Made by a program: the position numbers and the translations under genes | Assembly (NCBI GenBank): GCA_018242585.1 | Contig: JAFEBQ010000009.1 | Span: 1-64,000 of the forward strand | Direction of reading: 5' to 3' | DNA: 64,000 bases | From: Planctomycetota bacterium | Lineage (GTDB): Bacteria > Planctomycetota > Planctomycetia > Pirellulales > PNKZ01 | Part shown: positions 27 to 7,309 of the stretch, one piece after another | Position numbering within the stretch: the stretch's first letter is position 1 | Layout: each line of letters begins with the position of its first letter | The notes under the pieces: model-generated | Databases searched by the model: none | Seen by the model: the letters and a program-made list of their open reading frames with translations, nothing else | What the model was told of the DNA's origin: nothing

Positions 27-446
27 ATGACGCCGCAACAGGCAAATCAGCAAGAACGTGCGCCGGCGCAAGCCGCCGTGCCACGAGGGCCAGAACCCTT
101 GCTCTTCGATATGAAGAATGCGCTCCGGCGCGTGAATGACAACACGCGACTCATGGCCGAGTTGATCGCGTTTTTCTGTGAAGATTCGCCGGTGCTGCTA
201 ACGCGCATCGACGACGCAAAGGCCGTGGGCAACGCGGCCGACGTGGGGCGCGCGGCACACAGTCTGGCAGGCTTGTCGGCCACGTTCGATGGCCATTGCG
301 TGCGCGAGGTGGCGCTCCGCGTGGAGGAATTGGCCGATCAGGACCGTCTGGCCGACGCGACGACCGACATCGAACTGCTCCGCCAAGAAGTCGATCGTCT
401 GTGCGCGGCCTTGAGAGCCTTCCCACTTTCGGCCTCGGCGACCTAG
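27..446 (+). CDS. Free-standing histidine phosphotransfer (HPt) protein
   Basis: The protein has 139 residues and is a single four-helix HPt domain after a short Gln/Ala/Pro-rich leader. The phosphoacceptor is His78 in RAAHSLAGLSATF, the counterpart of the usual AHSLKG motif; the Lys that commonly follows is Ala here. HPt proteins shuttle phosphate between receiver domains in the cytoplasm. An in-frame stop at 12-14 shows that the gene begins inside the window rather than being the tail of a larger kinase. It converges on the NtrC-type regulator 40 bp away, and a hybrid kinase with a C-terminal receiver lies beyond that. I infer that it may link the two; nothing in the sequence proves it. The fold is clear, the partner is a guess. 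Confidence 0.85.
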   Translation: MTPQQANQQERAPAQAAVPRGPEPLLFDMKNALRRVNDNTRLMAELIAFFCEDSPVLLTRIDDAKAVGNAADVGRAAHSLAGLSATFDGHCVREVALRVEELADQDRLADATTDIELLRQEVDRLCAALRAFPLSASAT

Positions 447-485: not shown

Positions 486-1952
486 CTAGACGGCCGCGCC
501 GTTCACCGCGACCGCGTCCTCGATTTGCACGACGTGATCGATGGAAATGCCCAGGGCGTGAATCTTGTTGCGCAAGCTGCCGCGGGTGATGCCCAACATC
601 TGCGCCGCCTTCGACTGGTTGCCGTGTGTAATCGACAAGACGCGCGTGATCAAATACGCCTCCATCATCGCTTGCGTCTCGGCGAACAATTGATGCGAGT
701 TGGCGCGCAGGCGTTCGTCCAAGAAAGCGGCCAGGTCGCGGTTGGGAGACTCACTTGCCGCCGCGCCGCTGACGGGCTTTGGCGAGCCACGCAGCTCACT
801 GGGGAGCGCGTCGGGCATGATCACGGGGCCCGTGGTCTGCAACAGCGCCTTGCGCAGCACGTTTTGCAACTCGCGGACGTTGCCGGGCCAGGCGTAGTGC
901 GTCAGCAGTTCCAGCGCTTCGGCGGAGAAACCATGCACGTCCTTCCCCATTTGGCGCGCGAAGCGCTCGAGAAAATGCTCCAACAGCATCACCAGATCGG
1001 CCTCCCGCTCGCGCAGCGGAGGCAACGTGATCGAAAAGTCATTCAATCGATAGAACAAATCAGCGCGGAATTTTTCCTCGCCCACCAGTTGGTCCAGCGA
1101 GCGATTCGTGGCGGCGATGATTCGCACATCGCTGTTGATGGTTTCGTTGCCCCCCACGCGTTCAAAATCGTGTTGCTGCAAGACGCGCAGCACCTTGGCC
1201 TGGACCATTGGCGACATATCGCCGACTTCGTCCAGGAAAATGGTGCCGCCGTGGCACTGTTCGAACTTGCCAATGCGCCGACGGTCGGCGCCAGTGAAGG
1301 CCCCTTTCTCGTGGCCGAACAACTCGCTTTCCAACAATGTCTCAGTCAGCGCGGCGCAATTGACGGCCAGGAATGGCCCCGTGGCGCGCTGGCTGTGATG
1401 ATAGATGGCCCGGGCGATCAACTCCTTGCCGGTGCCGCTTTCCCCCAAGATCAACACCGTCACGTCTTGCGAGGCGACGCGCCCGACAGCCTTATAGACG
1501 TCGAGCATGGCCGGGCTGCGGCCGACAAGCCGCTCGGAACCGTCGTCTTCCATCTCGCCGTTGGGCAGGCCGACGGGAACCTGCATCAATCGCCGGCTAT
1601 CGAGCGCCTGCTCGACTTGCGCGCGCAGTTTGTTCAGATCAAGCGGCTTGGGGATGTAATCGTGCGCCCCCATCTTCATCGCTTCGATCGCCGTGTCGCT
1701 CGAGCCGCTGGCGGTGATGAAGATGATCGGCAGCTTGGCGTCGAAGGCGTGTATCTTTTGAAAGGTTTCCAAGCCCGACTCATTGGGCAGCACGACGTCG
1801 AGTAACACGACGTCGATCGGATCCTTTTCAAACAGCGCCAAGCCTTCGGCCGCGGAGGCGGCGGTTTTGACGTTAATATCGGTGTCGCGAAATGCCTCGC
1901 GCACCAGATGGACGACCGAACGGTCGTCATCAATGACCATGACATTGGGCAT
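486..1952 (-). CDS. NtrC/AtoC-family sigma-54-dependent response regulator
   Basis: The protein has 488 residues in three parts. The receiver domain (about 1-120) has its phosphoacceptor Asp52 in VVLLDVVLP and the conserved Lys in YIPKPLD. The AAA+ sigma-54 activation domain (about 143-375) shows the Walker A motif GESGTGKE, the sigma-54 contact loop GAFTGA and a Walker B region around FLDEVGDM. The C-terminal Fis-type helix-turn-helix includes GNQSKAAQMLGITRGSLRNK. Such proteins bind upstream enhancers and use ATP to open promoters held by sigma-54 polymerase. It is divergent from the hybrid kinase at 2380, and both genes have sigma-54-like elements in the shared intergenic region, so autoregulation is plausible. 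The length is normal for the family and all motifs are intact. Confidence 0.97.
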   Translation of the reverse strand: MPNVMVIDDDRSVVHLVREAFRDTDINVKTAASAAEGLALFEKDPIDVVLLDVVLPNESGLETFQKIHAFDAKLPIIFITASGSSDTAIEAMKMGAHDYIPKPLDLNKLRAQVEQALDSRRLMQVPVGLPNGEMEDDGSERLVGRSPAMLDVYKAVGRVASQDVTVLILGESGTGKELIARAIYHHSQRATGPFLAVNCAALTETLLESELFGHEKGAFTGADRRRIGKFEQCHGGTIFLDEVGDMSPMVQAKVLRVLQQHDFERVGGNETINSDVRIIAATNRSLDQLVGEEKFRADLFYRLNDFSITLPPLREREADLVMLLEHFLERFARQMGKDVHGFSAEALELLTHYAWPGNVRELQNVLRKALLQTTGPVIMPDALPSELRGSPKPVSGAAASESPNRDLAAFLDERLRANSHQLFAETQAMMEAYLITRVLSITHGNQSKAAQMLGITRGSLRNKIHALGISIDHVVQIEDAVAVNGAAV

Positions 1953-2079
1953 ATACCCCTCCCAAGTTGATGGAAGTTGGCGCCAAGCAACCCGCCTTGT
2001 TCGTGGACCCGCTTGGGTGACCGTTGCGTCCCGGTCGCCTATAGTTTACGCATTCCCGGGGTCGCGAGCCATGAAGGGG

Positions 2080-2095
2080 TGCAAAGATTGCGCCA
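2080..2095 (-). promoter_or_regulatory. Putative sigma-54 promoter of the NtrC-type regulator
   Basis: Read on the minus strand the site is TGGCGC-N5-TTGCA. It has GG at -24 and GC at -12 separated by exactly ten bases, and one deviation (G for A) from the TGGCAC-N5-TTGCW consensus. It would start a transcript roughly 115 nt upstream of the regulator. The 427-bp divergent gap 1953-2379 also holds the kinase-side element; I find no gene in that gap. Confidence 0.6.
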
Positions 2096-2245
2096 AACTA
2101 ATCCCCTTCGTGGCGCGAGGTGTAATAATGGCGACTGCTAAGCGCAGGATAACTTTGACGACGCTGGGACGATTTGTCGCAGTGCTACAACCACCGTGAA
2201 TTGCTCGTCGCGATTGATTTGTTGGTAACTGCCACGAAACCCACG

Positions 2246-2260
2246 ATGGCATTACCACTG
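2246..2260 (+). promoter_or_regulatory. Putative sigma-54 promoter of the hybrid kinase
   Basis: The plus strand reads TGGCAT-N5-CTGC with the diagnostic GG-N10-GC spacing. It deviates from consensus in the sixth base and in the first base of the -12 block. It lies about 120 bp upstream of the GTG start at 2380. Taken alone it would be weak; it gains weight from four similar sites in neighbouring intergenic regions. Confidence 0.42.
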
Positions 2261-2379
2261 CGCAATGTCACTCTCGGGAAAAATCCACGGTCGACATGCG
2301 CCAGTTGCGCAAGTGAGTTCACTCAACACTTTCACATGATCTGCTGGCACGAACTGGCGGCGATCGAAGGGGCGTAGTC

Positions 2380-4062
2380 GTGTTCGAGTTTTTATCTCGG
2401 CTGTTCGATACCTCCGATTTTCCAGCGCGCTGGCATTGCGGCGCCTGGACCAGCGGCCATGGCTGGCTCCATATCATTTCCGATCTGGGAGTCTGGGCAG
2501 CCTATGTCACCATTCCCTGCGTTTTGGCCTACTTTGCCATTCGCCGCCGCGATCTGCCATTTCGCTCGATCTTTTATCTGTTCATCGCGTTCATTCTCTG
2601 CTGCGGCACAACTCATTTGATGGAAGCAATCATCTTCTGGTGGCCGGCCTATCGGCTGGCGGGAGTAATTAAGCTGATCACCGCCTTGGTGTCGTGGGCC
2701 ACGGTGATCGCGCTGATCCCGACAACTCCCAAAATCCTCGCCTTGCGCAGCCCCCAGGAACTGGAACGCGAGATCGCCGATCGCAAGCGGGCAGAAGAAG
2801 AACTGCGCAAGCTGCACGTCGAATTGGAAGCTCGCGTGGCGCAGCGGACGACCGAATTGGCCCGCGCCAACGCCGCGCTGCAGGTCGAAGTGTCCGAGCG
2901 GTCCCATGCCGAGGAAGCGCTCAAGGAAGCTGATCGCCGCAAGGATCAATTCTTGGCGATCCTGGCCCACGAGCTCCGCAATCCGCTAGCGCCCATCAGC
3001 AACGCGCTGGAACTCTGGCCGCGGGTCGAGCATGACCATGGCCAGATGGAAATGCTCCGCACCATGATCGAGCGCCAGACGCGCCAGATGGTGCGCCTGG
3101 TCGACGATCTGCTGGACGTTTCCCGCATTACCCGCGGCAAAATCCAGCTTCGCTTGCAGCCGGTTGACGTGGCCAATATTGTCAACGGCGCGCTCGAAGC
3201 GGCCCGACCCTTGATCAACCAATGCGGCCATCAACTGACGGTCTCCTTGCCGGAACAGCCATTGTACATCAATGGCGACGTCGCCCGGCTGCTGCAGGCG
3301 TGTGGCAATATCCTCCACAACGCCGCGAAATATACGGGGCGTAACGGCTCGATTTGGGTCTCGGCCCAGCGCGAAGGGGAGCTAGCTGTCATCCGCATTC
3401 GGGACAACGGGCCGGGGATTCCGCCCGAAATGCTGGCGAAAGTGTTCGAGATGTTCACCCAGGTCGATCAAACGCTCGATCGCGCGTTCGGCGGCTTGGG
3501 CATTGGGCTGACGCTGGCCAAGACGCTGGTCGAAATCCAAGGGGGCAGCGTCGAAGCCCAGAGCGACGGCCCCGGTTGCGGCAGTGAGTTCATTGTCCGC
3601 CTGCCCGTCCTCGAACAGCCGGTGCCTGCGACCAGCCATCAAGAAAGCGCCCCCCCTGCCGCCAGCGGCGGCGTCCCATCGCATCGCATCGTGGTGGTGG
3701 ATGATATTTCGGCTTCGGCCAAGACGCTGGCCATGATGCTCAAGGCGGCTAACCAGGAAGTCGAAGTCTTTGTCGACGGGCCGACGGCCATCGAGGCCAT
3801 TCGCGCGACCCGGCCTGACATCGTCTTCTTGGACATCGCCATGCCAGGCATGGACGGTTATGAAGTCGCCCGCCGACTGCGGCAAATGACGGAACTGAAA
3901 GGACTGGTGATCGTTGCCCTGACGGGATATGGCCAGGACGACGATCGCCGCAAGACCCAGGCCGCCGGCTTTGATTATCACTTGGTCAAGCCAACGAGCA
4001 TCGACACCCTGGAGCAGTTGCTCTCGTGCATCCCCGCCGGCGATCATCCAACGCGACAGTGA
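2380..4062 (+). CDS. Hybrid histidine kinase with ETR1-like ethylene-binding membrane domain
   Basis: The protein has 560 residues with a GTG start. Three membrane helices (about 33-53, 63-84, 92-115) align without gaps to the ethylene-binding domain of Arabidopsis ETR1 at a constant offset of ten. All seven ETR1 residues that matter for binding (D25, Y32, I35, P36, I62, C65, H69) are present as D35, Y42, I45, P46, I72, C75 and H79; Cys and His are the Cu(I) ligands in ETR1. A coiled linker (about 126-188) follows, then a HisKA domain with His197 in ILAHELRNP, an HATPase domain with DNGPGIPPE and GGLGIGL, and a C-terminal receiver with its Asp in VFLDIAMPG. There is no GAF domain, unlike ETR1. 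The likely role is a membrane sensor that starts a phosphorelay. Ethylene as the ligand is inferred from the conserved site. Confidence 0.95.
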   Translation: MFEFLSRLFDTSDFPARWHCGAWTSGHGWLHIISDLGVWAAYVTIPCVLAYFAIRRRDLPFRSIFYLFIAFILCCGTTHLMEAIIFWWPAYRLAGVIKLITALVSWATVIALIPTTPKILALRSPQELEREIADRKRAEEELRKLHVELEARVAQRTTELARANAALQVEVSERSHAEEALKEADRRKDQFLAILAHELRNPLAPISNALELWPRVEHDHGQMEMLRTMIERQTRQMVRLVDDLLDVSRITRGKIQLRLQPVDVANIVNGALEAARPLINQCGHQLTVSLPEQPLYINGDVARLLQACGNILHNAAKYTGRNGSIWVSAQREGELAVIRIRDNGPGIPPEMLAKVFEMFTQVDQTLDRAFGGLGIGLTLAKTLVEIQGGSVEAQSDGPGCGSEFIVRLPVLEQPVPATSHQESAPPAASGGVPSHRIVVVDDISASAKTLAMMLKAANQEVEVFVDGPTAIEAIRATRPDIVFLDIAMPGMDGYEVARRLRQMTELKGLVIVALTGYGQDDDRRKTQAAGFDYHLVKPTSIDTLEQLLSCIPAGDHPTRQ

Positions 4063-4252: not shown

Positions 4253-4268
4253 TGGCACATAACATGCA
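4253..4268 (+). promoter_or_regulatory. Putative sigma-54 promoter of csrA
   Basis: The site reads TGGCAC-N5-ATGCA. The -24 block is perfect and preceded by T, GG and GC are ten bases apart, and the -12 block has A for its first T. It would start transcription about 100 nt upstream of csrA. It lies in the 315-bp gap between the hybrid kinase and csrA (4063-4377), where I see no convincing gene. Confidence 0.5.
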
Positions 4269-4377: not shown

Positions 4378-4575
4378 ATGTTAGTGCTATCTCGCAGGAT
4401 CGGTGAGGAGATTGTGATTGACGGTTCGATTGTCATCACCGTATTAGGCTCAGGCCGCGAACGGGTTCGCATCGGCTTGACCGCTCCCCGCTCGGTGCGC
4501 ATCGATCGTAAAGAGATTCAAGACCGCCGCGAACAGCACGCGCCAGAGGAACTGGCGGTAGCTACCACGGCCTAG
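4378..4575 (+). CDS. csrA: Carbon storage regulator CsrA
   Basis: The protein has 65 residues and begins MLVLSRRIGEEIVIDG, the hallmark CsrA N-terminus. The family's RNA-contacting strand region follows as GLTAPRSVRIDRKEI. A reading frame stays open upstream to 4252, but the family start is at 4378, with a GGAGGAG ribosome-binding site at 4366-4372. CsrA dimers bind GGA motifs near ribosome-binding sites and repress or stabilise mRNAs for motility, biofilm and carbon storage. No fliW neighbour or CsrB-like RNA is visible here. A sigma-54-type element lies 110 bp upstream, so expression may follow the nearby NtrC-type activator. Confidence 0.97.
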   Translation: MLVLSRRIGEEIVIDGSIVITVLGSGRERVRIGLTAPRSVRIDRKEIQDRREQHAPEELAVATTA

Positions 4576-6904: not shown

Positions 6905-7309
6905 CTAGTCGTCAGTGGCCGGGCTCGCGCCGGGCGGGCCGACCAATTCGCGGACCACGCGCACCAGTTCGACGGCATTGACTGGCTTGGCAACCACATG
7001 GTCCAGGCCGCAATCAATGGCGGGAAAAACCTTGTCGATCGTGGTATACGCGGTCAACAGAATCCCGTGCATTTTAGGTTGCAACTCGTGCATTTTCTTG
7101 AAGACATCGATGCCATTCAGCGTTGGCATCTGATAGTCGAGGATCGCCAGATCGAATGTTTTGCGAGCAGCCAGCTTCAAGGCCACGTCCCCCGAACCGG
7201 CCGTGTCGATGTCGTAGCCTGCCATGGAGAGAATGCTTGAGACTGCGGCAATTTGGCCCCGATCATCATCCACCACTAACAGTCGTTGCGCCACCATACC
7301 TTCCCCCAT
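6905..7309 (-). CDS. Single-domain response regulator (CheY-like)
   Basis: The protein has 134 residues, or 130 if it starts at the second Met (7297). It is one receiver domain: an acidic pocket LLVVDDD, phosphoacceptor Asp in LAILDYQMP, a Thr switch in LLTAYTT, and the conserved Lys in VVAKPVN. There is no output domain, so it acts through protein contact or as a phosphate carrier. A Pro/Ala tail follows the domain. It is monocistronic, with a sigma-54-like element 50 bp upstream, which ties it to the NtrC-type activator and HPt protein of this block. The cognate kinase is not evident; the hybrid kinase at 2380 via the HPt protein is one option. Confidence 0.92.
   Translation of the reverse strand: MGEGMVAQRLLVVDDDRGQIAAVSSILSMAGYDIDTAGSGDVALKLAARKTFDLAILDYQMPTLNGIDVFKKMHELQPKMHGILLTAYTTIDKVFPAIDCGLDHVVAKPVNAVELVRVVRELVGPPGASPATDD

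Follow-up and report, generated by a model that had tools for sequence, protein, structure and literature searches.

The plant receptor ETR1 has a three-helix Cu(I) domain, followed by a kinase and a receiver. A GAF domain is present as well, the receptor resides in the ER, and its main signalling route is CTR1. The same order of ethylene-binding domain (EBD), kinase and receiver is found in a hybrid histidine kinase encoded in the 64,000-nucleotide stretch of planctomycete DNA analysed here (the window), and the two proteins are 36% identical over 95 residues. In its GAF domain, ER location and main output through CTR1, ETR1 differs from the window kinase, which is predicted to feed a sigma-54 relay.

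AzoEtr1 of Azospirillum brasilense, for which ethylene binding has been shown and whose gene adjoins that of a response regulator, also has an N-terminal ETR1-type domain on a histidine kinase, and its residues D35, H79 and K98 bear the same numbers as in the window kinase (PMC11819568). In contrast to the window kinase, AzoEtr1 contains a PAS domain but lacks a fused receiver, and its regulator is a 135-residue receiver lacking an output domain, where the window has an Hpt protein and a sigma-54 activator (PMC11819568). SynEtr1 (slr1212) of Synechocystis is similarly a bacterial ethylene-binding kinase that acts by phosphotransfer to a gene regulator, but it is a bifunctional receptor of ethylene and light, Slr1213 acts on csiR1/slr1214, and a Hpt or sigma-54 step is not described (PMC6682694). 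Bacterial EBD proteins with a wide range of outputs have been reviewed, and proteobacteria and cyanobacteria are named (PMC7700396). In the part of the literature covered, nothing was found on ethylene receptors in planctomycetes, and among the best-ranked papers for ethylene receptors paired with sigma54 or NtrC none was about ethylene receptors. The receptor type itself is already known; a sigma-54 output of a putative ethylene receptor is apparently unreported.

The features of the locus are collected in Table 1. The GTG start of the kinase gene is backed by the sequence AAGGGG immediately 5' and by relatives with an identical start position. ETR1_N (PF25487) is matched at residues 27-122 (E 1.5e-36, 125 bits; the Pfam cut-off is 27 bits), and is followed by a coiled linker, HisKA (188-253), HATPase_c (299-410) and Response_reg (437-547). 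H197 in HisKA, N314 and D342 in HATPase_c, and D485 and K537 in the receiver are all present. The ETR1-type domain and the complete kinase plus receiver, both proposed for this gene by an earlier, sequence-only reading, are thereby borne out. PAS or GAF domains, found between sensor and kinase in several relatives, are missing in the window kinase. PF25487 occurs exactly once in the source genome.

Table 1. Features of the locus (window positions)
Feature	Position	Strand	Remarks
Free-standing Hpt phosphotransfer protein	27..446	+	139 aa; PF01627, E 8e-10
NtrC-type sigma-54 response regulator	486..1952	-	488 aa; divergent from kinase gene
Divergent intergenic region, possible operators	1953..2379	.	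427 bp
EBD hybrid histidine kinase	2380..4062	+	560 aa; GTG start
C20 codon	2437	+	directly before EBD; C20 kept in 151/155 homologous domains
Three-helix membrane ethylene-binding domain (putative)	2458..2745	+	PF25487; AlphaFold2 model
EBD residue codons	D35 2482, Y42 2503, I45 2512, P46 2515	+	
EBD residue codons	I72 2593, C75 2602, H79 2614, K98 2671	+	
csrA-like gene, 3' of kinase	4378..4575	+	link to system uncertain
Stand-alone receiver	6905..7309	-	134 aa, D58; possible accessory part

The resemblance to ETR1 is far beyond chance. In a BLASTP comparison with the Arabidopsis ETR1 N-terminus, the 95-residue alignment (E 8e-15) is gap-free from 33/23 through H79/H69, a single 3-residue gap being found later. 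The constant offset of ten, previously claimed for residues 33-79, is therefore correct. Wang et al., in 2006, are said to have found seven ETR1 residues to be required for ethylene binding, which we take to correspond to D35, Y42, I45, P46, I72, C75 and H79 of the window kinase. All seven are in place, C75 and H79 included, as the earlier reading had held. K98, also present, has its counterpart in the output lysine of AzoEtr1, likewise K98, which in turn corresponds to the output lysine of ETR1 (PMC11819568). An AlphaFold2 model of the domain, made from 14 aligned domains, has helices at 26-55, 62-84 and 91-120 (mean pLDDT 78.6), and the three transmembrane helices of the family profile are thus found both in the PF25487 match and in the model. 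A sequence search for a solved structure of the domain matched none. The window kinase is a putative ethylene receptor, predicted to bind copper and ethylene.

Completeness of the site had been presented as the remarkable point, and this part of the interpretation did not survive. PF25487 scores above the cut-off in 131 of the 398 Planctomycetia genomes sampled (133 of 398 at E 0.001), and in none of 14 control genomes. Among 155 distinct EBDs C75 is invariant, D35, Y42, I45, P46 and H79 are each kept in 153-154, and I72 in 148. C20 (151/155) and position 31 (H or Y) are also conserved. A complete site is the rule, each residue being found in 148-155 of 155 homologues, and cannot count as a novelty. 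Domains of the same type occur outside the class in Bacteroidota and other phyla, judged by record titles, and ethylene binding has already been demonstrated for two bacterial homologues with an equivalent site, AzoEtr1 and SynEtr1 (PMC11819568, PMC6682694).

The other part of the interpretation, a receptor-type kinase beside a sigma-54 activator, stands. The regulator gene adjoins that of the kinase, divergently, with 427 bp between the start codons, and encodes a receiver (D52), an AAA+ domain (Walker A at 170, GAFTGA at 217, D241) and a Fis-type HTH. Convergent with the regulator gene is a gene absent from the earlier account, encoding a free-standing Hpt protein with H78 as candidate phospho-histidine. 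The contig starts at window base 1, hence at the Hpt side of the locus. The wiring is stronger than was first claimed, because the free Hpt completes a relay. As the phosphosites (kinase H197, receiver D485, Hpt H78, regulator D52) are intact, and rpoN is present in the source genome, the His-Asp-His-Asp parts list ending in sigma-54 is complete within 4.1 kb. The GAFTGA and Walker motifs are intact too. The gene content found is that of a multistep phosphorelay, with the Hpt H78 and a final regulator having D52, AAA+ and HTH; phosphotransfer from kinase through Hpt to sigma-54 regulator is predicted on these grounds.

Two genes farther 3' were considered. Homologues of the stand-alone receiver are found near a sigma-54 regulator or an EBD kinase at six other loci (L209, L210, L216, L224, L227, L071). 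The csrA-like gene was rejected as a module member or target. The source genome has seven csrA matches and Pirellulales genomes hold 2-14 csrA genes each, so that adjacency means little. The csrA-like genes of the window and of locus L205 are each preceded by a one-mismatch sigma-54-like site, at a distance of 125 bp in the window (4253-4267) and of 82 bp in L205; each may be due to chance, and both are near an NtrC-Hpt pair.

Searches for promoters and operators gave little. A scan of the window for the sigma-54 consensus returned 83 consensus-like sites, against 85 expected, and sites upstream of the regulator had no strand bias (6 forward, 7 reverse of 42). The one sigma-54-like site in the intergenic region, 2095-2081(-), is unconserved in relatives. 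The proposal of a promoter or operator for sigma-54 close to these genes was consequently discarded, the matches being at chance level or unconserved. GCGC-centred palindromes are found in the same region (TTGGCGCCAA at 1977, TTGCGCCA at 2088, CTGCGCAA at 2258 and TTGCGCAA at 2305), and three TTGCGCAA-like sites in these 427 bp compare with about 0.3 expected at the window rate. They are possible operators of this locus; as a conserved operator they were set aside, being rarely present upstream of orthologous regulators. Also discarded was the conserved TGGCACGGAAGGTGC upstream of Gemmata-type EBD genes: it coincides with the beginning of the divergently transcribed regulator gene, where it may form part of the coding region or of a leader.

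Orthologues of the sigma-54 regulator are found at 54-64% identity across the order Pirellulales, to which the window belongs. At 27 of 41 regulator loci read in detail (counted by hand from a table) there is an Hpt no more than about 3.5 kb away; it is either a free protein encoded convergently, the arrangement of the window, or a part of a hybrid kinase. Regulator and Hpt form a conserved hub. The sensor of the hybrid kinase next to it varies: CHASE3 in L210, L222 and L232, PAS-like in L205 and L227 by reading of the sequences, and an EBD in the window and in L069. The latter (L069/L127) is a second EBD kinase that has both regulator and free Hpt adjoining. Across Pirellulales the pair usually comes with no ethylene sensor. 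In four genomes of the same family (G003-G006) the pair has no EBD kinase alongside, and the EBD kinase is found elsewhere; adjacency is therefore no family-wide rule. The EBD kinase appears to have joined the pair late and not to have been an original part of it.

Looked at from the side of the EBD, a sigma-54 regulator is found within 5 kb at 18 of 101 EBD loci (891 kb of flank), where about 2 are expected, given that 16 genomes of 5.6-9.9 Mb have 11-21 sigma-54 activator genes each. In thirteen of the 18, kinase and regulator genes are divergent, their starts lying 130-540 bp apart. By similarity to the window proteins these pairs span at least three kinase/regulator lineages, the window type, the L255/L258 type and the Gemmata type. 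They are not all independent events, since most sit in one family (f20). The twelve divergent pairs other than that of the window are at L254, L255, L258, L263, L266, L276, L277, L289, L291, L293, L294 and L300; these mostly belong to f20, which includes Zavarzinella of the Gemmataceae, and L255 and L258 make a separate lineage. In a Gemmataceae MAG (L080, 4944-15801) a different organization was noticed, a run of hybrid-kinase genes in which an EBD kinase with no fused receiver precedes a receiver encoded by its own gene and a large double-kinase protein.

The best matches to the kinase-receiver core of the window kinase (383 residues), at 60-61% identity, are in genomes G382, G406 and G104, and the sensors of these kinases are CHASE3 + PAS, DUF4118 and CHASE3 + PAS, an EBD being found in none of the three. 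Among the Pirellulales kinases alike at 60-61% over this core are the CHASE3/PAS hybrid kinases L232 and L335 and the DUF4118 kinase L334; L232 has the further likeness of being flanked by an NtrC-type regulator and an Hpt, but all three differ from the window kinase in having another sensor domain and no EBD. Sensors have been swapped on the core, because its closest relatives carry CHASE3 or DUF4118. In a careful tree of 60 cores, from which L315 and L323 were left out, their loci being clipped, the window kinase groups with these three non-EBD kinases (98/86); the non-EBD labels of several clipped loci were confirmed by genome search. The EBD label needs 12 changes on this tree, at least 9 of them forced by well-supported branches, and a single origin of EBD kinases is rejected on cores (p-AU 5e-89). 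L105 is the nearest EBD relative of the core, yet the EBDs are only 61% identical. The EBDs closest to that of the window, at 78%, 76% and 75% identity, are held by kinases which are either placed in other parts of the core tree or truncated at contig ends. A single acquisition of the EBD, shared by the window kinase and L105, may nevertheless have taken place (p-AU 0.31 on kinase cores and 0.08 on EBDs). The mixture of sensors found on a single kinase core shows that the EBD travels between kinases as a unit.

The reading we favour, and consider rather probable, is that of a Cu(I)-dependent hybrid kinase for ethylene or a similar ligand, feeding the adjoining Hpt, the NtrC-type regulator and, through it, sigma-54 promoters. 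C75 and H79 would hold Cu(I) in the three-helix ETR1-type domain, and this site would sense ethylene, or a chemically similar small ligand, at the membrane. The ligand state would set autophosphorylation of H197; the direction of its effect we infer from sequence, as we do phosphotransfer between the proteins and the target genes. From H197 the phosphate would move to D485 in the receiver of the same protein, on to H78 of the adjoining Hpt and finally to D52 of the divergently encoded regulator, which would activate sigma-54 promoters. The EBD would be an interchangeable sensor on a core that in its closest relatives is combined with other sensors, and the kinase carrying it would feed a regulator-Hpt pair conserved in Pirellulales.

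One of the two main rivals concerns the adjacency of kinase and pair. The EBD may be a true sensor with its partner elsewhere, the Hpt and regulator being a hub for one or more other hybrid kinases, and the neighbourhood incidental. Pairs with no EBD kinase beside them in G003-G006 (L208, L211, L213, L214), fusion of the Hpt to kinases with other sensors in L230, L231, L233, L234, L237 and L238, and two other hybrid kinases with similar cores in the source genome all fit this account, and the separation of EBD kinase and pair within the same family means that another kinase could serve the window Hpt. EBD kinases, however, neighbour sigma-54 regulators at about nine times the expectation, a free-standing Hpt needs the receiver of a hybrid kinase as donor, and the window kinase is the only hybrid kinase beside the Hpt in the sequenced stretch. 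Incidental adjacency is on balance rather unlikely.

About the same low probability is given to a different input, with Cu(I) bound through C75 and H79 and the kinase responding to copper level, redox state, CO or some other unsaturated small ligand. The conserved positions take in the metal site and its surroundings, as would be needed for any Cu(I)-dependent ligand, and extend to C20 and position 31 (H or Y), and the literature searched gives no ethylene link for planctomycetes; the two best-studied bacterial proteins having this site, on the other hand, bind and respond to ethylene (PMC6682694, PMC11819568). That the fold is a vestigial sensor, serving as membrane anchor for a kinase that is constitutive or driven by a cytoplasmic input, is very improbable: the direct passage from sensor to kinase, with no PAS or GAF, unlike in several relatives, would suit it, but none of the seven ligand residues has been lost, nor has the output lysine, contrary to expectation for a decayed sensor.

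An ethylene receptor feeding an Hpt and a sigma-54 regulator remains the preferred reading for the window. For Planctomycetia as a whole it is tentatively suggested, as a possibility short of an even chance, that the EBD is a widely traded gas-sensor cassette, repeatedly coupled to sigma-54 and reading ethylene through Hpt/NtrC-type relays. If so, a mostly aquatic and soil class, whose members are not known plant symbionts, would read ethylene as a transcriptional cue, the sources being photochemistry, algae or plants. For bacterial ethylene receptors, an output has been established in very few species. As the candidate output here is a sigma-54 activator with an adjoining Hpt, its targets could be read directly by RNA-seq with and without ethylene, and since the pairing recurs in several planctomycete lineages, a cultured strain could be used. 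In this way the association of EBD kinases and sigma-54 regulators offers, for a bacterial receptor of a "plant hormone", an output in gene control that can be tested.
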